NCBI GenBank assembly: GCA_937921555.1
Contig: CAKZUV010000165.1
Span: forward strand, 1-54,097
Direction of reading: 5' to 3'
Source of the DNA: an uncultured Saprospiraceae bacterium
GTDB taxonomy: Bacteria > Bacteroidota > Bacteroidia > Chitinophagales > Saprospiraceae
Length of the DNA stretch: 54,097 bases
The notes beneath the pieces are model-generated. The model worked only from the letters and a program-made list of their open reading frames with translations, was not told the DNA's origin and did no database searches. Numbering within the stretch: position 1 is the stretch's first letter; every line of letters starts with the position of its first letter. The translations under genes were made by a program, and so were the position numbers. Shown piece after piece: positions 2,484 through 46,080 of this stretch.

Positions 2484-4406
2484 ATGATTAACATCACCTT
2501 ACCCGACGGCTCCGTCCGTTCTTACGAATCCGGCGCTACTTCCATGGACGTCGCAAAATCCATCAGCGAAGGGCTGGCCCGTAACGTACTTTCCGCCCGT
2601 GTCAACGGCGAAGTCTGGGACGCCAACCGCCCTATCGATCACGATGCAAAAGTGGAACTATTAACCTGGCGGGACCACGATGGTAAAAAAACGTTCTGGC
2701 ATTCTTCTGCCCACCTGATGGCGGAAGCCCTCGAAGCGGTCTATCCCGGCATCAAATTCGGAACGGGTCCGGCCATCGATAATGGTTTTTATTACGACGT
2801 CGATCCGGGAGAACATAAAATCTCTTCGGATGATTTTCCAAAAATTGAAAAGAAATTTTTAGAACTGGCACGTACTAAATCTGCTTTTGTCCGCAAGCCC
2901 ATTTCAAAAGCGGACGCGCTGGACTATTTTACCAAAAAGGGAGACGAATATAAAATCGAGTTGATCGAAAAGCGGGGCGAAGACGAAGCGTTGACGTTAT
3001 ACGAGCAGGGAAATTTTGTAGATCTTTGTCGTGGACCACACCTCGAACATACTGGCGGTATCAAAGCCATCAAACTCACCAACGTGGCGGGTGCTTTCTG
3101 GCAGGGCGACGACAGCCGTCAGCAAATGACCCGGATTTATGGTATCTCTTTTCCAAAACAAAAAGAATTAACAGAATATTTACATTTGCTGGAAGAGGCT
3201 AAAAAACGGGATCATCGTAAACTGGGCGCCGAACTGGAGTTGTTTATGTTTTCTGAAAAAGTAGGGGCCGGTCTGCCGATTTGGTTACCCAAAGGAACGG
3301 CATTGCGTACACGGCTGGAAGATTTTTTGAAAAAAGAACAAATCAAACGTGGCTACCAACCGGTCATCACGCCGCATATTGGTAAAAAAGATTTATACGT
3401 TACTTCGGGGCACTACGAAAAGTACGGGGAAGATAGTTTTCAGCCAATTCATACGCCTCGGGAAGGCGAAGAATTTTTACTTAAGCCGATGAACTGTCCC
3501 CACCACTGTGAGATTTTCGGTCACCGTCCGCATTCTTATAAAGAGTTGCCGATTCGGATTGCCGAGTTTGGTACGGTCTACCGTTACGAGCAAAGTGGTG
3601 AATTGCACGGCCTGACCCGGGTTCGTGGATTTACGCAGGATGATGCGCATATCTTTTGTACACCGGATCAATTGAAAGATGAATTTCTGAACGTGTTGGA
3701 TCTGACGATGCACGTGATTAAAAAATTGGGATTCGAAGATTTTACGGCGCAGATTTCGCTCCGTGATCCGGAAAACAAACAAAAATATATCGGTTCGGAC
3801 GAAAACTGGGAGAAAGCAGAGCAAGCGATTATTGACGCTACCAAGGAGGTTGGACTGGAAACGGTCACCGAATTAGGGGAAGCTGCTTTTTATGGTCCGA
3901 AACTCGACTTTATGGTTAAAGATGCGTTGAAGCGTAGCTGGCAGTTGGGTACCATTCAGGTGGATTATAATTTACCCGAAAGGTTTGAACTGGAATATAT
4001 CGGTGCTGATAATCAACCCCACCGTCCCGTGATGATTCACCGGGCGCCTTTTGGTAGTATGGAACGATTTATCGGAGTATTGATCGAGCATTGTGCGGGT
4101 AAATTTCCATTGTGGCTGATGCCGGAGCAGTTTGCGATTTTGCCGATTAGTGATCGTTTTAATGGCTATTGTGAAAAGGTGCTGACCGAATTAGCCGCTA
4201 AGGATGTACGGGGTTATATCGACGACCGGAGTGAAACGATTGGTAAAAAAATCCGGGATACCGAATTAAAGAAAATTCCTTTTATGCTGATTGTTGGTGA
4301 AAAAGAAGAGGCGGAAGGTAAAGTGTCGTTGCGCGTGCAGGGAGATGGAGACAAGGGCAGTATGAACGTGGACGAATTTGCGGCGTATATTGCGGAGCGG
4401 TTGTAA
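2484..4406 (+). CDS. thrS: Threonine--tRNA ligase
   Basis: 640 residues, close to E. coli ThrRS (642). It charges tRNA-Thr in the cytosol. Domains in order: TGS (1-61), editing domain (about 65-225), class II catalytic core (about 245-540) and anticodon-binding domain (about 545-640). The editing residues H73 and H77 (HSSAH) and C182 and H186 (CRGPH) are at the same positions as in E. coli. The catalytic zinc ligands are likely C338 (MNCPHH), H389 (DDAHIF) and H519 (MIHRAP). Motif 2 is around [27 protein letters not shown] at 2484 gives the standard [10 protein letters not shown] start. The usual infC-rpmI-rplT neighbours are absent downstream. Confidence 0.97.
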
Positions 4407-35955: not shown

Positions 35956-36052
35956 CCTTTACGATAAATATTTTAAATTGCGTTGAACCTATCGAACCTT
36001 CTGGCATTCTATTATAATTCAAGTAATCATCTTTTAACCAAAATCAATTTAA

Positions 36053-36439
36053 ATGAAAATTTATCTACTTTCAATCGTCTTAGCCATTTTCTTTCTAACC
36101 CCTGCCAATACCTACGCCGTCAAACCTGTTAATCCACCCAGTAAGCAGGAAATTAAGGACGCAAAAAAACAAGCCAAAAAAGAATGGAAAAGTTTGTCAA
36201 AAGACGAACGTAAAAACCGAAAAGCGGAAATCAAAGAAGCCGTCAAACAAGCCAAAGATGCTGGTACGGACACGAATACGTTACTGCTGGTAATATTAAC
36301 AATTCTTTTACCGCCGTTGGCTATGTTCTTGTACGAAGGGGAGGCCACTACTCGTTTCTGGCTCTCGTTGATATTGACACTTCTCGGATACTTACCTGGA
36401 TTAATTTATACTTTAGTCGTAATCTTAGGTGAGAAATAA
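36053..36439 (+). CDS. YqaE/Pmp3 family membrane protein with secreted linker
   Basis: 128 residues. Signal peptide-like N-terminus (MKIYLLSIVLAIFFLTPANTYA), a strongly charged helical linker (about 28-75, rich in Lys, Glu and Ala) and a C-terminal Pmp3 domain with two membrane helices (LLLVILTILLPPLAMFLYEGEATTRFWLSLILTLLGYLPGLIYTLVVIL). Canonical Pmp3 proteins are about 50 residues and relate to membrane potential and stress; the added N-terminal part is a common Bacteroidota variant. Function is unknown. ATG at 36053; ends just before a palindromic terminator. Confidence 0.87.
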   Translation: MKIYLLSIVLAIFFLTPANTYAVKPVNPPSKQEIKDAKKQAKKEWKSLSKDERKNRKAEIKEAVKQAKDAGTDTNTLLLVILTILLPPLAMFLYEGEATTRFWLSLILTLLGYLPGLIYTLVVILGEK

Positions 36440-36453
36440 TTCCTGAAAGTAAA

Positions 36454-36497
36454 AATAAGAAGCCCCTCTTTCAGCGCTGAAAGAGGGGCTTCTTATT
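36454..36497. terminator. 44-bp perfectly palindromic bidirectional terminator
   Basis: Perfect palindrome centred between 36475 and 36476, arm AATAAGAAGCCCCTCTTTCAGC. The stem is GC-rich in the middle and ends in A/T on both sides. It separates the convergent Pmp3-like gene (plus) and ileS (minus). Confidence 0.88.
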
Positions 36498-36519
36498 CTG
36501 TAAAAAGGAACCTTTGTCA

Positions 36520-39500
36520 CTAACCCACTGCTCGTCTCACCCCGATATTCAGAGACAATTCTTCCAGTAGTTCCACCGCAATGGCGTTCTTCGGATCAGC
36601 TACCAACGTAATATCATTGGCCAGTACCTCATTGGCAATATAATCTTTAAAACCAGCGATTCCCGCCTGTACTTCCACCTTGTCCTGCACCTCCACGATG
36701 ATCCGGTCTGTAATCTCAAAGCCCTGATCTTTCCGGATATTCTGGATTCGATTGACCAACTCCCGGGCGACTCCTTCGGCGCGTAAATCATCGGTCAGCG
36801 TCACATCCAGTGCGACTGTGAGGGGGCCTTCACTCGCAACCAGCCAGCCCGGAATATCCTGCGTTGTAATTTCAAAATCTTCGAGTGTCAGTGTAAATTC
36901 CTCGTCGTTGATGACCATTTGCATGCCACCATTTCTTTCCAGATTCGCAATCTCGGCATCCCCAAATTTTCCAATAGCCTGTGCTACCGTTTTCATGTGT
37001 TTACCCATCCGGCGTCCCAGCGTCTTAAAATTAGGTTTGATTCCTTTTTTGATAATTCCTTCCGTATCGGTGATGTATTCGATTTCCTTTACGTTTACCT
37101 CCGAAAGAATCAAATCTTTTACTCCTTCTACCTGTTCCTGAAAACTGGGATTCAGAACGGGTAACAGAATTTTTTGTAAAGGCTGCCGGACCCGAATATT
37201 TTCTTTTTTCCGTAAGGATAAAACCAGCGAAGAAATAGACTGCGCGTAATCCATTCGCTGCTCGAGCGCCGGATCAATGACACTTTCGTCAGCCTTCGGA
37301 AAATCCGCCAGGTGGACCGAAATAGCGGTTTCTTTTTTGGTAATATTATTCAAATTGCCGTACATCCAGTCCGCAAAAAACGGAGCAACCGGTGCCATCA
37401 ATTTACTGATCGTCACCATGCAGGTGTAGAGCGTTTGGTAGGCCGCAATTTTGTCAGCACTATAATCTCCTTTCCAGAAACGACGACGACACAAACGTAC
37501 ATACCAGTTGCTCAGATGCTGATCGGTAAACTCCTGCACTTTTCGGGTAGCTGCGGTGGCTTCGTAATCCGCGTAGTCGGCCGTCACCTCTTTCACCAGA
37601 GAATTGAGCAAAGAAATAATCCAGCGATCAATTTCCGGACGCTCTGCCAGTGGAATCTCCGCTTCGCTAAAATCAAATTTATCAACGTTGGCGTAAAGTC
37701 CAAAGAATGAATAGGTATTATATAATGTTCCAAAAAATTTCCGGCGTACCTCCTCAATTCCGGCAATATCAAATTTAAGATTATCCCACGGTTGTGCGTT
37801 GGAGATCATATACCAGCGGGTCGCATCCGCACCGTACTTTGCCAGGGTCTCAAAAGGTTCCACTGCGTTGCCCAGACGTTTAGACATCTTTTGTCCATTC
37901 TTGTCCTGCACCAAACCATTGGACACCACATTTTTATACGCCACACTATCGAACGCCATTACAGCAATTGCGTGCAAAGTATAAAACCAGCCCCGGGTTT
38001 GGTCTACCCCTTCGGCAATAAAATCAGCCGGGAAACCCATCTTCTTTTCCGGATCAAATTTGTCCAGATTTTCAAACGGATAATGCCACTGCGCATAAGG
38101 CATCGACCCGGAATCAAACCATACGTCGATCAAGTCCAGTTCACGGGTGAGCGGTGTTCCGTCTTCGGCCACGAGGATGATTTCGTCGATGTAAGGACGG
38201 TGCATATCTTTGGGAACCGTTTGGTTTTTGCCCAGTGCGGCGTTGGCTTTTTCGATTTCTTTACCAAGTTCTTCGATCGAACCGATACATTTTTTTTGCG
38301 CTTTATCTTCCGACACCCAGATCGGTAGTGGGATTCCCCAAAAACGGGAGCGGGATAAATTCCAGTCGTTCAGATTTTCGAGCCACTTGCCAAAACGACC
38401 TTCTCCGGTGGAGGCCGGTTTCCAGTTGATGGTTTTATTCAGTTCGTACATCCGCTCTTTCATCGACGAGGCTTTGATAAACCAGCTATCGAGCGGATAG
38501 TATAAAACGGGCTTGTCCGTCCGCCAGCAATGCGGATAGGAGTGCACGTATTTTTCGATTTTAAACGCTTTATTTTCTGTTTTTAATTTGATGGAAATCA
38601 AAACATCCACACTTTTATCGGGCGCATTTCCTTCGGTATAATATTCGTTTTTAACGTACAATCCTGCTAGTTCTCCCACCTCTTTTCTGAATTTTCCTTG
38701 CAAATCTACGAGCGGAACCGGTTTGTCATTTTCATCCAAAACCAACATGGGAGGAATATCATTTTCTTTTCCGACCTGGGCATCATCGGCTCCGAAAGTG
38801 GGTGCGATGTGGACAATACCGGTACCGTCTTCGGTGGTTACAAAGTTGCCGGGAATCACGCGAAAAGCTTTTTCCGCATTTTGGTAAGGCAAAACGTAGG
38901 GTAATAATTGTTCGTAAGAAATACCGACCAGTTCGGCTCCCTTAAATTCTTTTAGAATCTGAAAAGGAATTTTTTTATCACCCGCTTTGTAGTCGTCCAG
39001 ACTTTCTCCTTCTTCCAGTGCTTTAAATTTTCCGCTTAGTTGTTTACCTACGAGGGCTTTCGCCAAAACAATATGACTCGGCTGGTGGGTATATTGATTA
39101 AAAGTCCTGACGAGCACATAATCAATTTTGTTACCTACGGCTAACGCAGTATTGGAAGGTAAGGTCCAGGGAGTCGTCGTCCAGGCAATGATACAGACCT
39201 CGTCACTATTTGCCGCCGTGAATAAGAAATCGGAAGCGGCATTTTTTTTTAATTTAAATTGGGCAATGGCCGAAGTATCGGTTACATCCTGGTAAGCACC
39301 GGGTTGATTAAGTTCGTGACTGCTCAATCCTGTTCCCGCCGCCGGAGAATACGGCTGGATGGTGTACCCTTTGTAGAGTAAATCTTTATCGTATAATTTT
39401 TTTAATAAAAACCAGACAGACTCAATATAGTTATTATCAAAAGTGATGTACGGATCATTCAGGTCCACCCAATACCCCATCTTGCGGGTGATATCATCCC

Positions 39501-39888
39501 ACATATCTTTGTAGCGCATGACCGTTTCGCGGCAAGCTTTATTATAATCGTCCACTGATATTTTGGTGCCGATATCTTCTTTGGTAATGCCCAGTTCTTT
39601 TTCCACACTCAGCTCAATGGGAAGTCCGTGCGTATCCCAGCCACCTTTTCGTTGTACGCGTTGTCCCTGCATAGTGTGAAAACGGCAGAACAAATCTTTA
39701 ACCGTCCGGGCCATTACGTGATGGATACCCGGCTTACCGTTGGCCGAAGGAGGACCTTCGTAAAAAACGTAGGTATTTGAAGCATCCTTTTCAGAAATAC
39801 TGCGTTCAAAGACGTTTTCGGATTTCCAGAAATCAAGTATTTCCCGGTCGATCTCCGGTAGATTAAGGCGGTCATAAGACTTGTACAT
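36520..39888 (-). CDS. ileS: Isoleucine--tRNA ligase
   Basis: 1122 residues. Class I HIGH-type motif is PPSANGKPGIHHVMAR (about 46-61, GIHH core) and the KMSKR loop is GQKMSKRLGN (about residue 667). The CP1 editing domain lies between (about 200-430: AWTTTPWTLPSNTALAVG, GTGIVHIAPTFGADD), followed by anticodon-binding and C-terminal domains. Length and the GKPGIHHVMAR form are those of the eukaryote-like (type 2) IleRS usual in Bacteroidota; type 2 enzymes are generally less sensitive to mupirocin, but that is family knowledge, not shown here. ATG at 39888. The 5' leader carries an Ile-rich peptide and a terminator hairpin, suggesting control by charged tRNA-Ile. Confidence 0.97.
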   Translation of the reverse strand: MYKSYDRLNLPEIDREILDFWKSENVFERSISEKDASNTYVFYEGPPSANGKPGIHHVMARTVKDLFCRFHTMQGQRVQRKGGWDTHGLPIELSVEKELGITKEDIGTKISVDDYNKACRETVMRYKDMWDDITRKMGYWVDLNDPYITFDNNYIESVWFLLKKLYDKDLLYKGYTIQPYSPAAGTGLSSHELNQPGAYQDVTDTSAIAQFKLKKNAASDFLFTAANSDEVCIIAWTTTPWTLPSNTALAVGNKIDYVLVRTFNQYTHQPSHIVLAKALVGKQLSGKFKALEEGESLDDYKAGDKKIPFQILKEFKGAELVGISYEQLLPYVLPYQNAEKAFRVIPGNFVTTEDGTGIVHIAPTFGADDAQVGKENDIPPMLVLDENDKPVPLVDLQGKFRKEVGELAGLYVKNEYYTEGNAPDKSVDVLISIKLKTENKAFKIEKYVHSYPHCWRTDKPVLYYPLDSWFIKASSMKERMYELNKTINWKPASTGEGRFGKWLENLNDWNLSRSRFWGIPLPIWVSEDKAQKKCIGSIEELGKEIEKANAALGKNQTVPKDMHRPYIDEIILVAEDGTPLTRELDLIDVWFDSGSMPYAQWHYPFENLDKFDPEKKMGFPADFIAEGVDQTRGWFYTLHAIAVMAFDSVAYKNVVSNGLVQDKNGQKMSKRLGNAVEPFETLAKYGADATRWYMISNAQPWDNLKFDIAGIEEVRRKFFGTLYNTYSFFGLYANVDKFDFSEAEIPLAERPEIDRWIISLLNSLVKEVTADYADYEATAATRKVQEFTDQHLSNWYVRLCRRRFWKGDYSADKIAAYQTLYTCMVTISKLMAPVAPFFADWMYGNLNNITKKETAISVHLADFPKADESVIDPALEQRMDYAQSISSLVLSLRKKENIRVRQPLQKILLPVLNPSFQEQVEGVKDLILSEVNVKEIEYITDTEGIIKKGIKPNFKTLGRRMGKHMKTVAQAIGKFGDAEIANLERNGGMQMVINDEEFTLTLEDFEITTQDIPGWLVASEGPLTVALDVTLTDDLRAEGVARELVNRIQNIRKDQGFEITDRIIVEVQDKVEVQAGIAGFKDYIANEVLANDITLVADPKNAIAVELLEELSLNIGVRRAVG

Positions 39889-39911
39889 AAAAAACGATTT
39901 AAAACGATCAC

Positions 39912-39949
39912 AAAAAAAAGCGCCGGCAGGTAATTAATCCGCCGGCGCT
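39912..39949 (-). terminator. Terminator in the ileS leader (candidate attenuator)
   Basis: On the minus strand AGCGCCGGC-GG-ATTAATTA-CC-T-GCCGGCGCT is followed by eight T in total (39919-39912). The stem has 9 GC-rich pairs plus 2 after a bulge. It lies between the leader peptide stop (39973) and the ileS ATG (39888) with no other gene upstream on that strand, so it can only act on ileS leader transcripts. Confidence 0.88.
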
Positions 39950-39972
39950 CTTGCATAAATACCATAAAGCTC

Positions 39973-40035
39973 CTACAGATTGGGGTTAATTCCAATAATT
40001 CGAATACTAATGATTATATTTATGCAAAATTTCAT
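39973..40035 (-). CDS. ileS leader peptide, isoleucine-rich
   Basis: ATG at 40035 to TAG at 39975-39973 encodes MKFCINIIISIRIIGINPNL: 20 residues, 8 of them Ile, with a run of three (residues 7-9) and a pair (13-14). The ATG is about 14 nt after the start site predicted from the promoter at 40055-40085. The last Ile codon is about 40 nt before the terminator hairpin. This is the pattern of leader peptides used in ribosome-mediated attenuation, where shortage of charged tRNA-Ile stalls the leader ribosome and allows read-through into ileS. I found no convincing antiterminator pairing, so the mechanism is inferred. Confidence 0.72.
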   Translation of the reverse strand: MKFCINIIISIRIIGINPNL

Positions 40036-40054
40036 TTTTACTAAATTTGGAATC

Positions 40055-40085
40055 CAAAACTAATATTTATTTATAACAATTGCAA
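40055..40085 (-). promoter_or_regulatory. ileS promoter
   Basis: On the minus strand TTG (40085-40083), exactly 20 bp, then TAGTTTTG (40062-40055), a full match to the Bacteroidota -33/-7 consensus. Expected start site is near 40049, giving a leader of about 160 nt that contains the Ile-rich peptide and terminator. Confidence 0.65.
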
Positions 40086-40096
40086 TTTAATAATCT

Positions 40097-40999
40097 ATGG
40101 GACCAGTTTGGGGTATTGATTTAGGCGGTACGAAAATCGAAGGGGTTGTATTGGAAGATCCTAATAATCCGGTTGTTTTGAAAAGGTTGCGGGTAGCGAC
40201 CGAAAAGGAAAAAGGCTATCAACATATTATCGGTCAGATCGTTAAACTGGTAGAAGTACTGATGGCCGAGACGGGCGTAAAACCTCATAAAATCGGTATC
40301 GGAACACCAGGAACCCTGGAACCTTCGACCCAGACGATGAAAAACAGCAACACCACCGTCATCAATGGTAAGTATTTGAAAAGAGATCTGGAACGGGCAC
40401 TCTCGATGCCGGTCTCGATGGCTAACGATGCCAACTGTTTTGCGATCGCGGAGACGAAGTTGGGCGTCGTAAAAGAAGAATTACCCGATGCCAAGGTGGT
40501 CTTTGGTGTCATTATGGGTACAGGTGTCGGTGGCGGACTGGTGGTGAACGGACAGGTGATTAACGGCAAGCAGGGCATCGCCGGCGAATGGGGACATAGC
40601 TTTATGGATACCTCGGGTGGGAAATGCTACTGTGGAAAAGTCGGATGTACCGAGACTATTATCTCAGGTCCGTCGCTGGAAAGATTTTATTTTGAAAAAA
40701 TGGGTATCGAAAAATCCCTGCCGGAAATTGTGGGACTTTACCGCGAGGGAAATGATGAAGCGGCTACGCAAACGGTACAGCGGTTACTCAAATTTTTTGG
40801 TCAGGGTATTGCCAGCATTATCAATATGATTGATCCCGATGCGGTAATCATTGGCGGTGGTGTGAGTAAAGTCGATTTATTATACGACGAAGGGGTGAAG
40901 TCGATTGAGCAACATGTTTTTAATCATCGTCTGGAAACACCTGTATTGCGGCCCCGGCTGGGGGATAGTGCGGGCGTATTTGGCGCTGCGCTGTTGTAG
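40097..40999 (+). CDS. ROK family sugar kinase
   Basis: 300 residues. The N-terminal phosphate-binding motif is GIDLGGTKIEGVVL (5-18). The catalytic Asp lies in MANDANCFAIAE (about 115), followed by GTGVGGGLVVNGQ and the ROK zinc/signature region EWGHSFMDTSGGKCYCGKVGCTETIISG with the CxCGxxGCxE zinc motif. Most such proteins phosphorylate glucose, fructose or N-acetylhexosamines; substrate is not readable here. No N-terminal HTH, so it is a kinase rather than a ROK repressor. ATG at 40097, divergent from ileS. Confidence 0.92.
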   Translation: MGPVWGIDLGGTKIEGVVLEDPNNPVVLKRLRVATEKEKGYQHIIGQIVKLVEVLMAETGVKPHKIGIGTPGTLEPSTQTMKNSNTTVINGKYLKRDLERALSMPVSMANDANCFAIAETKLGVVKEELPDAKVVFGVIMGTGVGGGLVVNGQVINGKQGIAGEWGHSFMDTSGGKCYCGKVGCTETIISGPSLERFYFEKMGIEKSLPEIVGLYREGNDEAATQTVQRLLKFFGQGIASIINMIDPDAVIIGGGVSKVDLLYDEGVKSIEQHVFNHRLETPVLRPRLGDSAGVFGAALL

Positions 41000-41194
41000 A
41001 AATTTTAAACAAGCTCCTATTTCAAATAAAATAAACAAATACGACAAAATCGAAGTATTCAACCCTGTTTTATCGAGATTGTCCTGTAATGTGTGTCAGC
41101 GCGTTGGCTATCCTTTAGGAATACAAGGTGCGGGATGCAAAATCACACACCTAACGGTACAGTCCCGTTTTATCTATCTAATATTTAAAAAACC

Positions 41195-41824
41195 ATGCTG
41201 CGAACTCAGCAACTAGAATATACTTACCCCGGAAACAAAACGATCACCTTTCCCGATATTCAGTGTGAAAAAGGATCGCAGTGGCTTTTGCTGGGGCAAT
41301 CCGGCACGGGTAAAACAACGTTATTACATTTGTTGGGAGGTATTCGAAAGCCACAAAAAGGAAAAGTATACGTCGCCGGTCAGGAATTAAATAATCTGTC
41401 TTCTACTGCGCTGGACCAGTTTCGTGGTAAAAATATCGGTATCGTTTTTCAGCAATCTCATTTTGTTCAGGCGCTGACCGTCGGTGAAAATTTACAACTT
41501 GCCCAAACCTTAGCGGGTCATTCTGCGGATTCCAGCCGGATAAAAAACCTCCTGGATCGACTTAATATTGGCGATAAGATCAATGACCGGACCAACCGTC
41601 TTAGTCAGGGTGAGCAGCAACGGGTCGCCATCGCACGTGCCCTGGTGAACAGCCCCGGATTGATTCTGGCGGACGAACCCACTTCGGCACTGGACGATGA
41701 AAATTGTAAAGAAGTAATTGATCTGTTGGAAACGCAGGCAAAAGAAGAGGGCGCCACGCTGGTCATCGTCACGCATGATAGTCGCCTCAAAGCATTTTTT
41801 GATCACAAAATAATTTTACAATGA
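41195..41824 (+). CDS. ABC transporter ATP-binding protein, MacB/LolD type
   Basis: 209 residues. Walker A GQSGTGKT (34-41), Q-loop IGIVFQQSHFVQALTVGENL, signature LSQGEQQRVAIARAL, Walker B LILADEPTSALD and H-loop IVTHDSR are all present. It overlaps the downstream FtsX-type permease by 4 bp (ATGA), so the two form one transporter of the MacB/LolCDE superfamily. Such systems move or release substrates at the outer face of the inner membrane rather than importing through a channel. The His-rich loop of the permease and the Cys-containing periplasmic protein downstream hint at a metal link (inference). Confidence 0.94.
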   Translation: MLRTQQLEYTYPGNKTITFPDIQCEKGSQWLLLGQSGTGKTTLLHLLGGIRKPQKGKVYVAGQELNNLSSTALDQFRGKNIGIVFQQSHFVQALTVGENLQLAQTLAGHSADSSRIKNLLDRLNIGDKINDRTNRLSQGEQQRVAIARALVNSPGLILADEPTSALDDENCKEVIDLLETQAKEEGATLVIVTHDSRLKAFFDHKIILQ

Positions 41825-43221
41825 ATCCGCTGACGCTGAGTTGGAAAAACCAGAAAGACCGGCCTTTGCAAATGCTGCTAACGTTGCTTTTGTTTGGTTT
41901 GGGCGTTGGCCTGATTTCGTTACTAATTTCACTTAATACCCAACTGGACGAAAAATTTAAAAATAATCTGGCGGGTATCGACCTCGTGATTGGTGCCAAG
42001 GGGAGTCCCCTCCAGATGATCCTGTCGAGTATGTACCACATCGACGCACCGACGGGAAATATTTCTATCAAAGAAGTAAAACCTTTTCTGAATCCAAAAC
42101 ATCCGCTCGTCAAACTAGCCGTTCCGCTTTCTCTGGGAGATAGTTATAAAACGTTCCGGATTATCGGGACCACCCACGAATACGTAGATTCTATTTTTAA
42201 AGAAAGCGTAGCGACCGGAAAACTCTGGGATAGACTTTATGAAGTGACCATCGGTGCCAATGTGGCCAGCAAAACCAATCTCAAAATTGGCGATCAGTTT
42301 CATAGTTCTCACGGATTTACGGATGATGGGATCAATACCCACGATCACGGAGAAGGGTTTAAAGTAGTCGGAATTTTAAATAAATCAAATACGGTGTTAG
42401 ATCAGTTAATTCTGACCAATACGCAATCTGTCTGGGCGGTTCACGATCATGAAGCCGAAGAAAAAAAGGCACCTGCGGACGCGCCGGAAGGAGAACACGA
42501 TCATGACCATGATCACGATCACGCAGATCATTCGGATCACGATCATGGCGAACACGATCATGGCGAACACGACCATGCGGCTCACGAAGGGCATGACCAC
42601 GACGCGCACGATCATAGTAAACATGACCACGCAGCAGCACCCGTCTTCAAACCATTGACAGCATATCCTGATAAAGATATCACGACACTACTGGTGCGTT
42701 ACCGGAACAAAAAAGACTGGCGCGCACTGAATATGCCACGTAGCATCAATGAAAATACCGATTTGCAAGCCGCCAGTCCGGCTATTGAAATGAATCGGTT
42801 GTACTCGATGATGGGCGTCGGAACGGATGCGTTACGTAATCTGGCCCTGATCATTGTGGTAGTATCGGGATTAAGTATTTTTATCTCGCTGTTTAGTTCC
42901 CTGAAGGATCGTAAATACGAACTGGCTTTGATGCGGGTGATGGGCGCGAGTCGGGGTTATCTGTTTTTTCTGATTATTCTGGAAGGTCTGCTCTTTGCAA
43001 TCATGGGATATCTGCTGGGATTGTTATTGAGTCACGGTGGAATGGCGTTGCTTTCAGGCTATCTGGAAGAAGCGTACCAGTACGAATTTAGTGGCTGGCG
43101 ATTTTTCAAGGAAGAGTTTTGGTTACTGGGTGGATCGCTGGTAATTGGCTTTTTGGCGGCATTAATTCCGGCATTTCAGGCGTACCGGACCGATATTTCT
43201 GAGACTTTAACAACGTATTAA
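41821..43221 (+). CDS. FtsX-like ABC permease with a His/Asp-rich periplasmic loop
   Basis: 466 residues with four transmembrane helices: one near the N-terminus (about 17-38) and three at the C-terminus (about 340-362, 390-415, 435-458). The large periplasmic MacB-type domain between them carries an insert at about residues 208-273 made almost wholly of HDHDH-type repeats (over 20 His, many Asp and Glu), as in zinc-handling proteins. The C-terminal FtsX motif DRKYELALMRVMGASRGYLF is clear. Start overlaps the ATPase stop. From memory, similar ATPase/permease pairs with His-rich partners occur in zinc-regulated loci of gammaproteobacteria; metal dependence here is inference. Confidence 0.92.
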   Translation: MNPLTLSWKNQKDRPLQMLLTLLLFGLGVGLISLLISLNTQLDEKFKNNLAGIDLVIGAKGSPLQMILSSMYHIDAPTGNISIKEVKPFLNPKHPLVKLAVPLSLGDSYKTFRIIGTTHEYVDSIFKESVATGKLWDRLYEVTIGANVASKTNLKIGDQFHSSHGFTDDGINTHDHGEGFKVVGILNKSNTVLDQLILTNTQSVWAVHDHEAEEKKAPADAPEGEHDHDHDHDHADHSDHDHGEHDHGEHDHAAHEGHDHDAHDHSKHDHAAAPVFKPLTAYPDKDITTLLVRYRNKKDWRALNMPRSINENTDLQAASPAIEMNRLYSMMGVGTDALRNLALIIVVVSGLSIFISLFSSLKDRKYELALMRVMGASRGYLFFLIILEGLLFAIMGYLLGLLLSHGGMALLSGYLEEAYQYEFSGWRFFKEEFWLLGGSLVIGFLAALIPAFQAYRTDISETLTTY

Positions 43222-43311
43222 GAACAGATTTGGGGGGAAAGACGTTATCTTTGGGGAGGTTGAATCGTTGATTGAGTCACTCTTGAATTACAATTACATT
43301 AAGAAAAAAAG

Positions 43312-43806
43312 ATGAAAAAAATACAATCCTTTTTACTAGCTACAGGTCTTCTAATGCTATTGACGTTTTCGCTCACGGCGCAACAAGCACCCGCCGCGTC
43401 GGATGTTCCGGATGTTGCAGAACTTGAAGTAGAAAATACCTGGAAAATGTTGAGTCGGCTGACGTATAAAAAACAGTACGATGAAATGATGGGCTTTAAA
43501 GTAGACATTCCCGTTTTTAGCAAAGATATCCGGGCGATGGAAGGAAAGGAAGTAACGGTCAAAGGTTACGTAATTCCGGTAGAAGGATACAAGAGTCACA
43601 AAGAATTTGTTTTTTCTGCTTTTCCGTATAATATGTGCTTTTTCTGTGGTGGTGCGGGACCTGAAACGGTGATGGAAATTGAGGCCGTAGAGGCCGTTGA
43701 ATATTCGGCGGATGCGATTACCCTGCGCGGAAAACTGCAGCTGAATGATAGTGATATTAACCGGTTGATTTATTCGCTGACGGATGCGCGGGTGGTGAAG
43801 GAGTAG
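43312..43806 (+). CDS. Periplasmic protein with CFFCGGAG motif, DUF3299-like
   Basis: 164 residues. Signal peptide 1-23 (MKKIQSFLLATGLLMLLTFSLTA). The mature part has an OB-like beta pattern: GKEVTVKGYVIPVEGYKSHKEFVFSAFPYNMCFFCGGAGPETVMEIE. The C-x-x-C-G-G motif could bind metal or form a redox pair. It resembles DUF3299-type proteins, which I recall next to MacB-like transporters, but I am unsure of the family name. It lies 90 bp after the permease and is followed by a terminator, so it probably ends the same operon. Confidence 0.82.
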   Translation: MKKIQSFLLATGLLMLLTFSLTAQQAPAASDVPDVAELEVENTWKMLSRLTYKKQYDEMMGFKVDIPVFSKDIRAMEGKEVTVKGYVIPVEGYKSHKEFVFSAFPYNMCFFCGGAGPETVMEIEAVEAVEYSADAITLRGKLQLNDSDINRLIYSLTDARVVKE

Positions 43807-43830
43807 GTATGATAGAAAATATTTTAAAAT

Positions 43831-43870
43831 AAAAGGGACGACTATGATTGAATTTGTAGTCGTTTCTTTT
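43831..43870. terminator. Bidirectional terminator
   Basis: GACGACTA / TAGTCGTT stem with A-rich left flank (aaaagg) and TTCTTTTTTT on the right. It separates the convergent transporter operon (plus) and the DUF5916 gene (minus). Confidence 0.72.
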
Positions 43871-43875
43871 TTTGC

Positions 43876-46080
43876 CTACAAAGGAATCCAGTAATTTAGT
43901 TTTATTACCAATGCCCGGTTCTTGGGTGCAAAACTTCCTGTCAAATAATTTTCGGTATACACCAGATGGAAGTCGGACAAAGGTTGGTAGCGCCAGTTAA
44001 AACGGGCATTGATATTAAAATTGTCTTTTTGGGTATTGTACTGTAAAAAGGTGGTGAAGGAGATATTACGGTTAAAAGAATATTCTATTTTACTACCTAA
44101 CAAGACAAAGTGAATAATTTCTTCCTGGTTGTCAAATCCGCCAAGGTCCTGCTTGGAAAAATTGATTCCCACGTTGAAATGCCGGTTTAGACGGTAAGCG
44201 AAATCACTCGTAAAATCAAAATGGTGTCCTGTGTATTCGTACCGGTAACCAATACTGGCGTGGGTGGAAAACTGTTTGCGCTGACCCGAATCATAGGTTA
44301 GCAGATAGCCCTGGTTGTGATAAACGCCCACCTCAAATGGTAGTTGCAATCCATCTAGCAACAATGGAACTTGTAGTCGTGGAGCTGTATTACTATACTG
44401 TAAACTGAAGTAAGCCGAATTTTTAAACTGCAGTGTCAGATCCAGCTCAAGCCGGTATTCCAGGAACTGATATTGTTGATTGAAAAATAAATCTAACTGA
44501 TAACTGGGGCTGAGAAAGTCGAGCGTTTCATGTTCGTTGAAAAAGAAGCGATAGTACCCGCTGTTCCTCACATCAACGTAACCAATCTGAATCGTCGTGT
44601 CTCTGACTTTATCCTGATGATACAATCGCGGCACATAATCCATCCCGGAAAAATAATCTTCCTCCACGCTGTCCAGTCCAAAAAATATACTGTAATTTTT
44701 TTCCTTGTAACGTGTCTTTAAGGTAAAAGCCCTGGCCGGTTGGGTGTTGGTATCACTAAACGCATAATGTAGAAAAACCTTACCCGTCAGACGCGAAGCT
44801 AAAAGGCGGTAATCAAATTCCAGTCCGCCGACCCGTTGATAATCACTTCCCGGCTGCCACTTGTTAAAGCCTTGCCGATTAGTCATAAAAGCGGTGATGG
44901 AAGATCCTTTTAAAATATTTCTTTGAACCGTTGCTACCGTATAATTTTTGTGGGTCGTTGCTCCCTGCGGAGATTCTGTTTGAACGTTCATCAGACCAAT
45001 TCGCCACTTATCGTTGAGGTTGCCACTCAGCCGGGCACCGTAAAGTATGTTAACGGGATCGTCTCCGGCGCTGCCGATTCTTCGGGAAAAGAAAGGACGA
45101 ATCCGGCTATTGCCCAATTTTTCAAATAAATCACTGTTCTCTAAAAAGAAAGGTCTTTTTTCCGGAAAAAACAGTTCAAAGCGCTGAAGGTCAATTACCT
45201 GACGATCTACCTCCACTTGCGAAAAATCCGGTTTGAGGGTAAGGTCCAGATTAAGCGAAGAATTGAGTGCTATTTTTGCGTCCATCCCTGTGTTAAAAAT
45301 GGCCGTTGCGGGTTCCTCCTTGCTGTGATCTTTTATTCCACCGACGGCCACGTAAGGATTAATAACCGTAGATAACCCTGGTTTTTTTAAGGTGTTTTGC
45401 CAGCGGAGTGTTCCCATGGAAGAGAGCGTTGTTGTTTCAAAACCACGGGTGATGGGAACCCACGAAGATACTTCGTTGCTTTTGAGGTCATTTCTGACAA
45501 AGTTAACTTTCCATTCTGTTTGCTGGTGATTGTACCGTAAGATATTGAAAGGAATGGCAATTTCTACGGACCAGATTTTTTTGTCCGGAGATTGCCAGAC
45601 CTCGGCGTACCACATCCCGTCCCAATTGGTGTTGATAGATTTTTTTTTGTGACCACCATCAGAGATGATCGCATCCCACTGTACTCCGAAGGGATTGACG
45701 CCAAACCCCAGGGCATTATTTCCGTCTTTGAAGGCATCGAGATAAACGGCAAAAGCATCATTGACTTCAAAATCGAAATCTCTTTTTAATGACTGGACCA
45801 CAAAATCTCCCTGCTTCTGACTGGTACAAGTTGCACCGATGTAAAGAAAATAATCATCGTGTAAAACCCGGACCCTCGTCAAGGATTGGGATGGAATAGA
45901 ATCTTGGGGAAAGGTCATCCAGAAAGGAGTTGTCTCATCGGCGGAGGTCCACTCAGGCTCGAGTAACTGACCATCGAGGTCTATCTTTTTTGTTATAAAA
46001 TGGGCACGGAGAGCCTGTTCCTGCGTGTAACCAGATAGCCACACAAGCGAAAATAAAAACCAGAGGTATGATTTTATCAG
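43876..46080 (-). CDS. DUF5916 outer-membrane beta-barrel protein with CBM9-like N-terminus
   Basis: About 734 residues. Signal peptide, then a CBM9-like domain (about 25-215: KKIDLDGQLLEPEWTSADE, DDYFLYIGATC, NDAFAVYLDAFKDGNNALGFGVNPFGVQWD) and a C-terminal DUF5916 barrel (KPDFSQVEVDRQVIDLQRFELFFPEKRPFFLENSDLF is diagnostic). Likely outer membrane; role unknown. The start is unusual: GTG at 46044 would cut into the signal peptide, while the frame stays open to TAG at 46104 and reads IKSYLWFLFSLVWLSGYTQ. No ATG is available. CTG at 46080 gives a normal signal peptide (MIKSYLW...); ATT at 46101 is another choice. I list the CTG start tentatively. Confidence 0.85.
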   Translation of the reverse strand: MIKSYLWFLFSLVWLSGYTQEQALRAHFITKKIDLDGQLLEPEWTSADETTPFWMTFPQDSIPSQSLTRVRVLHDDYFLYIGATCTSQKQGDFVVQSLKRDFDFEVNDAFAVYLDAFKDGNNALGFGVNPFGVQWDAIISDGGHKKKSINTNWDGMWYAEVWQSPDKKIWSVEIAIPFNILRYNHQQTEWKVNFVRNDLKSNEVSSWVPITRGFETTTLSSMGTLRWQNTLKKPGLSTVINPYVAVGGIKDHSKEEPATAIFNTGMDAKIALNSSLNLDLTLKPDFSQVEVDRQVIDLQRFELFFPEKRPFFLENSDLFEKLGNSRIRPFFSRRIGSAGDDPVNILYGARLSGNLNDKWRIGLMNVQTESPQGATTHKNYTVATVQRNILKGSSITAFMTNRQGFNKWQPGSDYQRVGGLEFDYRLLASRLTGKVFLHYAFSDTNTQPARAFTLKTRYKEKNYSIFFGLDSVEEDYFSGMDYVPRLYHQDKVRDTTIQIGYVDVRNSGYYRFFFNEHETLDFLSPSYQLDLFFNQQYQFLEYRLELDLTLQFKNSAYFSLQYSNTAPRLQVPLLLDGLQLPFEVGVYHNQGYLLTYDSGQRKQFSTHASIGYRYEYTGHHFDFTSDFAYRLNRHFNVGINFSKQDLGGFDNQEEIIHFVLLGSKIEYSFNRNISFTTFLQYNTQKDNFNINARFNWRYQPLSDFHLVYTENYLTGSFAPKNRALVIKLNYWIPL

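Follow-up and report, generated by a model that had tools for sequence, protein, structure and literature searches.

The ileS gene of an uncultured Saprospiraceae bacterium, which encodes isoleucyl-tRNA synthetase (IleRS), is very probably preceded by a ribosome-mediated transcription attenuator, in which translation of an isoleucine-rich leader peptide would decide between an intrinsic terminator and a competing antiterminator. The argument draws on the parts themselves, on their conservation, on a coding constraint at the isoleucine codons and on the co-variation of both alternative helices, all of which are apparent from comparison of sequences across the family. Attenuation of the trp/his/ilv type in front of ileS had been proposed from the letters of the window alone (the window being the whole stretch of 54,097 nucleotides analysed); the conserved isoleucine codons and hairpin, the contrast in folding between ribosome positions and the co-varying antiterminator bear this proposal out.

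Organisation of the ileS leader

The gene is assigned by its NCBIfam score (TIGR00392, cut-off 621.4 bits, score 974.9); the protein also gives high scores, short of the cut-offs, with the MupA and MupB models. A promoter, a 20-codon ORF containing 8 Ile codons and a GC-rich hairpin followed by T8 before the ileS ATG, all three pointed out by the sequence-only reading on the minus strand, were found in place (Table 1). TTG-N20-TAGTTTTG fits the Bacteroidota promoter consensus and is a candidate from which the putative start site is placed. Since the neighbouring ORF is transcribed divergently, the hairpin does not end the transcript of a preceding gene. The leader RNA as a whole folds at -45.2 kcal/mol, against a mean of -29.65 kcal/mol for dinucleotide shuffles (z -4.14), and is more stable than 200 of 200 such shuffles.

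Table 1. Features of the ileS leader and its surroundings in the window
Feature	Position	Strand	Details
ileS, isoleucyl-tRNA synthetase, 1122 aa, presumed regulated gene	36520..39888, ATG 39888	(-)	ORF list and NCBIfam TIGR00392
Candidate promoter P1, Bacteroidota type, TTG-N20-TAGTTTTG	40055..40085	(-)	TTG 40085-40083, 20 nt, TAGTTTTG 40062-40055
Leader peptide ORF MKFCINIIISIRIIGINPNL, 20 codons, 8 Ile	39973..40035	(-)	stop UAG 39975-39973
Segment 1 (A), leader codons UUGCAUAAAUAU	40016..40027	(-)	pairs with 39962-39951 (helix 1:2), duplex -11.5 kcal/mol
Segment 2 (B), antiterminator strand AAUCUGUAGGAGCUUU	39966..39981	(-)	spans leader stop codon; antiterminator duplex 39981-39966 : 39951-39936
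Segment 2' (A'), GUAUUUAUGCAA	39951..39962	(-)	partner of segment 1, immediately 5' of terminator
Segment 3 (C), terminator 5' side AGAGCGCCGGCGGAUU	39936..39951	(-)	common to antiterminator and terminator
Intrinsic terminator (3:4), GCGCCGGC...GCCGGCGC	39912..39948	(-)	hairpin 39948-39920, then T8/U8 39919-39912
Divergent upstream neighbour, ROK-type kinase ORF	40097-40999	(+)	ROK kinase models, every score below cut-off

Two further helices can be drawn in the window leader. One (1:2) joins leader codons to the RNA 5' of the terminator, while the other (2:3) engages the 5' side of the terminator itself, such that the set reproduces the 1:2 / 2:3 / 3:4 layout known from the trp and his attenuators. 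The sequence-only reading had missed a clear competing antiterminator and was mistaken on this point; its suggestion that the switch mechanism may be unusual finds no support either, since such an antiterminator exists and co-varies. With flanks included (39952-39912), the terminator reaches -24.7 kcal/mol against -15.0 kcal/mol for the antiterminator duplex, and the antiterminator must therefore win by forming first; a kinetic win of this kind over a stronger terminator would be the usual argument for attenuators.

Conservation of the leader and terminator

Leaders were sought in 450 nt upstream of each gene by a criterion of at least 4 Ile residues making up at least 15% of the peptide, with a terminator within 80 nt. 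This arrangement occurs in 44 of 89 Saprospiraceae ileS upstream regions, of which 40 also reach 5 Ile and 25%, and in none of 25 valS or 24 thrS upstream regions, nor in any of 61 named ileS regions not classed as Saprospiraceae (taken from 70 loci, L041-L110, after omission of nine that were Saprospiraceae, unplaced or cut).

A search with the N-terminal 200 residues of IleRS found relatives in 148 of 150 family genomes, six of them weakly (E 1e-6 to 1e-10). Upstream regions were read for 90 of these 148 and for three named loci, and 46 of the resulting 93 regions (one of 21 nt only) carry the leader and terminator, the loci coming from several dozen genera; among them is L037 of the cultivable Flavilitoribacter nigricans DSM 23189. 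In this count the choice of leader was set by hand for L139 and that of the start codon for L035, L147 and L115; the criterion is too strict for some loci, L034 with a 3-Ile leader and terminator being scored negative, and the degenerate leader versions of L026 and L027 are likewise not counted as positive. The leaders at the 46 loci have 4 to 8 Ile codons each, with a mean Ile fraction of 0.31 over 43 leaders (8/20 in the window). The leaders retain a start codon and end in frame at a stop within or close to segment 2, despite variable length and flanking residues, and the bases before the stop read ATCTG in 19/46 leaders, the same core lying just 3' of the stop elsewhere. The terminator consensus of 42 homologues comprises 14 pairs, 9 of which keep their pairing through changes on both sides. 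Alignment of related upstream regions had been suggested as a check on the original proposal, and conservation of both the Ile codons and the hairpin across many Saprospiraceae genera is what it yields.

Co-variation of the alternative helices

Consensus folding of alignment A1 alone (42/46 loci, with L032, L115, L135 and L144 left out) recovers the terminator and neither of the alternative helices, because segments 1 and 2' lie at variable spacing; the energies of duplexes formed with own and with swapped partners were therefore compared. In the 43 of 46 loci used, from which the near relatives L002, L003 and L035 were omitted and which still hold at least four other genus pairs, the segment 2:3 duplexes have a mean of -15.35 kcal/mol with their own partners against -12.19 kcal/mol when swapped (z -8.37, with 0 of 20,000 permutations as low), and the segment 1:2 duplexes in these 43 genomes a mean of -11.01 against -8.44 kcal/mol (z -7.35). 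Controls gave z values of -1.21, -0.55 and -0.14 for the antiterminator and, with reversed partners, of +0.6 and +0.7 for helix 1:2; over 20 letter-shuffles of the partners the mean z was -0.55 and the lowest -2.35, and reversed or unrelated partners ranged from -1.21 to +0.73.

Within A1 a 7-pair core of the antiterminator is paired in 87.3% of cells, as against 22.6-37.1% when slid, and 15 cells carry a double change where shuffles give 3.6 (0/500 reach the observed value). The number of pairs showing a double change in A1 is itself unremarkable, the same value being reached by 81/500 shuffles. As judged from these comparisons, both alternative helices, 1:2 and 2:3, co-vary across the family.

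Coding constraint on the leader peptide

Codons were aligned for 44 of the 46 leaders (L003 and L035 were left out), and these share a peptide run resembling NIIISIII. The columns with an Ile majority contain 263 cells, distributed as 162 ATT, 48 ATA, 27 ATC, no ATG and 26 other codons, such that all 75 third-base changes at Ile codons, to ATA or ATC, are synonymous. Since ATG is never found beside these 75 changes, selection appears from the codon record to act on the amino acid, beyond the RNA alone. The last two shared columns read AAT or GAT in 23/34 and CTG in 22/30 filled cells.

Ribosome position and the proposed switch

Folding was modelled with the A-site codon plus 10 nt covered, an assumed footprint, and with the RNA transcribed only as far as the 5' half and loop of the terminator. 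Over 43 genomes, the mean number of upstream pairs into the 5' half of the terminator is 13.3 for a ribosome stalled at Ile codons, 2.8 for one that has reached the stop codon and 9.9 for ribosome-free RNA, and at least 6 pairs enter this arm in 43/43, 11/43 and 34/43 leaders, respectively. The window leader places no pairs into the terminator arm with the ribosome at the stop and 4 without a ribosome, helix 1:2 prevailing in its ribosome-free fold; the 34/43 leaders above show that this helix is not the winner everywhere. Within the limits of this model, the contrast between stall and no stall is clear and the untranslated state less so; folding with a stalled ribosome, put forward in the sequence-only reading as a means of checking it, thus gives the expected result under the assumed footprint.

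From this layout we infer where transcription starts, that the ribosome stalls, how the structures compete kinetically and what regulation results, as follows. Transcription would start from P1 and a ribosome would begin on the leader ORF. With tRNA-Ile well charged, the ribosome would reach the stop codon and mask segment 2, allowing the terminator (3:4) to form and transcription to end before ileS. When charged tRNA-Ile is scarce, the ribosome would stall on the Ile codons and leave segment 2 free to pair with the emerging 5' arm of the terminator (2:3), such that the terminator would not form and ileS would be transcribed. Without translation, helix 1:2 could form in the window leader and termination would be favoured.

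Distribution in the family and the phylum

A covariance model of the element, R1, matches 94/150 genomes of the family at E<=0.1, in many cases weakly. At E<=1e-4 the best match remains in 59/150, and in 57 of these 59 it lies upstream of ileS on the same contig and strand, 54 at 19-249 nt and three at 655-1279 nt; in the other two (G015, G122) the match is near a contig end. In the three distant cases the leader is separated from ileS by other ORFs. Between leader and ileS stand an ORF resembling an IS200/IS605 transposase at L203 (G146:C142:4700-6900), one resembling a Uma2-like protein at L204 (G046) and an unknown 253-aa protein at L202 (G003). L205 (G056:C95:10800-13200) holds two copies of the ileS leader, some 1.4 kb from each other, and between them a 380-aa ORF, presumably Fic-like. 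At L201 (G114:C269:5300-7500) a gene on the opposite strand, lipoprotein-like by eye, is enclosed by two leader copies that are almost identical and each carry a -7 motif. The best family match away from ileS, L206 (G118:C124:12582-12706, E 1.5e-4), reads by eye as a terminator near a tRNA-like stretch, with no Ile-rich leader.

On an IleRS tree of 40 rows, presence of the leader needs 9 changes, at least 6 of them forced by well-supported branches, a count inflated by the setting of L034 to 'no'; clustering on the tree is modest, 11/500 shuffles being as low. We read the leader from these sequences as an old family element that has repeatedly been lost, and repeated gain may be the alternative.

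In a phylum sample of 395 genomes, which included few Saprospiraceae, R1 matches at E<=0.001 in 11, namely in the window's own genome and in 10 outside the family. Ile-rich leaders precede ilvE-type genes in G235, the strongest outside the family, and in G213 and G402; the genes of G235 and G402 score above the NCBIfam cut-off for a branched-chain transaminase, the G213 gene is a putative ilvE, and a putative ilvD lies downstream in all three. Among the other seven outside-family matches, reading by eye revealed no case of an Ile-rich leader linked to a gene. Two tandem Ile-rich short ORFs precede ilvE in each of three non-family genomes (L221, L225, L222/L231), the pair in L221 being MNTRILNIISIIVVVIIISQG and MNRFLNIIISIVIISSPPS; such tandem ORFs are possible double attenuators.

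Within Saprospiraceae, a mixed Ile/Val/Leu leader with a terminator precedes ilvD at 11/30 loci (L232, L234, L238, L241-L244, L247, L249, L253 and L258), L242 carrying two such leaders in tandem and that of L243 being weak; none was seen upstream of ilvD in the window's own genome (L257). The same criterion finds none before valS (0/30), and no leader was seen in the family before thrS (0/30), leuS (0/29), pheS (0/26) or hisS (0/29), in a screen where contig ends truncate some loci and where many leuS and some pheS matches start within the gene, such that single cases could be missed. A general attenuation of synthetase genes in Saprospiraceae was considered and rejected on these zero counts for five genes. 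By the criterion applied, no leader rich in Thr and followed by a terminator was found before the thrS gene of the window itself (2697-4394, plus strand). On the sequences compared, the specificity within the family is that ileS leaders are Ile-rich as against the mixed composition of ilvD leaders.

Promoters and alternative explanations

The motif TAnnTTTG, by its consensus a Bacteroidota promoter motif of the -7 type, occurs at 27/46 loci in the 110 nt that precede the leader start (chance about 0.08 per locus), at 23/46 together with a TTG 17-22 nt upstream and before the leader. The same motif (P2) recurs between the terminator start and ileS at 40/46 leader-bearing loci (chance 0.09 per locus), at 18/46 with a TTG at 17-22 nt, and it lies within 130 nt of ileS in 33/43 loci without a leader (chance 0.08). 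It thus looks like the ordinary ileS promoter, presumably kept 3' of the attenuator in most of these species, which would provide a basal start beside the regulated one. The window and two congeners lack it 3' of the terminator start (0/3), and in the window genus ileS would therefore depend on P1 and the attenuator. A start site 3' of the hairpin had been named in the sequence-only reading as a ground for refutation; this condition bears on the relatives, most of which carry the motif there, and not on the window genus.

The frequency of P2 raises the question whether ileS is driven mainly by its own promoter downstream of the hairpin, the element then serving chiefly as a terminator with attenuation as a minor contribution. 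This we consider unlikely, since P2 is missing in the window genus and since the co-variation and the constraint on Ile codons indicate an attenuator under selection although P2 is present at most loci. Another explanation dispenses with the ribosome, such that the RNA would sense free isoleucine, tRNA or the IleRS protein and the ORF would be incidental. Synthetases that control their own genes are known, for example the threonyl-tRNA synthetase of E. coli (PMC2965389), and the folding allows a ribosome-free antiterminator in many leaders. An incidental ORF is nevertheless at odds with the wholly synonymous third-base changes and the complete avoidance of ATG at its Ile codons, as well as with the preserved start codon and in-frame stop, and no Rfam family, the T-box included, attains its gathering score in this region of the window; we regard such sensing as highly improbable.

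Short ORFs are common in AT-rich DNA, and one might stand by chance beside an ordinary terminator. To this we attach next to no weight, for the arrangement appears in 0/1068 first-order Markov random sequences and 0/110 control upstream regions, and recurs in 46 loci from dozens of genera. Ribosome-mediated attenuation is thus the explanation that we retain.

Comparison with known systems

Synthetase genes under attenuation are already known (pheST, cysS, hisS), and what is new here is the gene, ileS, and the clade. An ileS leader-peptide attenuator is not described in the titles and abstract openings searched, a search that left the subscription literature partly outside its scope, and Lopatovskaya et al. 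2010 may predict one. We lean, with some reserve, towards an undescribed, lineage-wide class of attenuators in Saprospiria, with an ilv-like architecture narrowed to isoleucine, that ties IleRS production to the charging of tRNA-Ile and is mostly backed by P2, but with P2 lost in the window genus, such that an essential synthetase would rely there on the attenuator alone. To our knowledge, the number of RNA switches elucidated in Bacteroidota is small, and the leader would offer a compact, testable case of an essential enzyme controlled by the charging of its own tRNA; the leader alignment could become an RNA family.

The enterobacterial trp, his, ilv and pheST attenuators operate by the logic of 1:2, 2:3 and 3:4 helices with a leader peptide and an intrinsic terminator, pheST being the textbook case for a synthetase. 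The ileS leader shares this logic and these parts, and differs in the gene concerned and, in the window, in an antiterminator strand that spans the leader stop codon. Among Rfam models run on 20 homologous loci, His_leader reached at best 37.8 bits against a gathering score of 49, and Thr_leader 32.7 against 55. In Firmicutes ileS is controlled by a T-box, which concerns the same gene and the same signal, uncharged tRNA-Ile, as the ileS leader, but in which the tRNA binds the leader RNA directly and no leader peptide is involved. No T-box match was obtained up to E = 1 in window positions 36000-44000 or in the 20 homologous loci, and a T-box or other known RNA family was rejected, there being no match at Rfam gathering level in the same regions. 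T-box control of ileS is also predicted in several Actinobacteria (PMC1262725). The present leaders thus suggest that one lineage of Bacteroidota applies ribosome-mediated attenuation to the gene for which Firmicutes and Actinobacteria use T-boxes.

Leader-peptide attenuators have been proposed for Bacillus hisS*/hisZ, which share with the ileS leader a synthetase-type gene and a leader peptide of cognate codons and differ in amino acid and phylum, being histidine and Firmicutes (PMC2965389). Closer in phylogeny, leader-peptide attenuation has been suggested for amino-acid biosynthesis operons of Flavobacterium psychrophilum, and structured 5' regions have been noted for synthetases (PMC9723704); such leaders and the ilv leaders share with the ileS leader the Bacteroidota setting and a branched-chain type of leader peptide with terminator, and differ in serving biosynthesis operons, not ileS. 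The Saprospiraceae ilvD leaders differ from those of ileS in terminator sequence as well as in their mixed Ile/Val/Leu composition. In Bacteroides thetaiotaomicron, short ORFs reminiscent of leader peptides have been noted (PMC7366714).

Ribosome-mediated attenuation has likewise been proposed for cysS in Rhodobacterales with the uORFC-8-2 motif (PMC8632094). Like the ileS leader, this motif combines a conserved short ORF containing cognate codons with two stems and a terminal U run before a synthetase gene (PMC8632094). It concerns cysteine in alphaproteobacteria, carries two Cys codons in tandem and shows a third paired region rarely and without co-variation (PMC8632094), whereas the ileS leader concerns isoleucine in Bacteroidota, with 4-8 Ile codons and a co-varying antiterminator.
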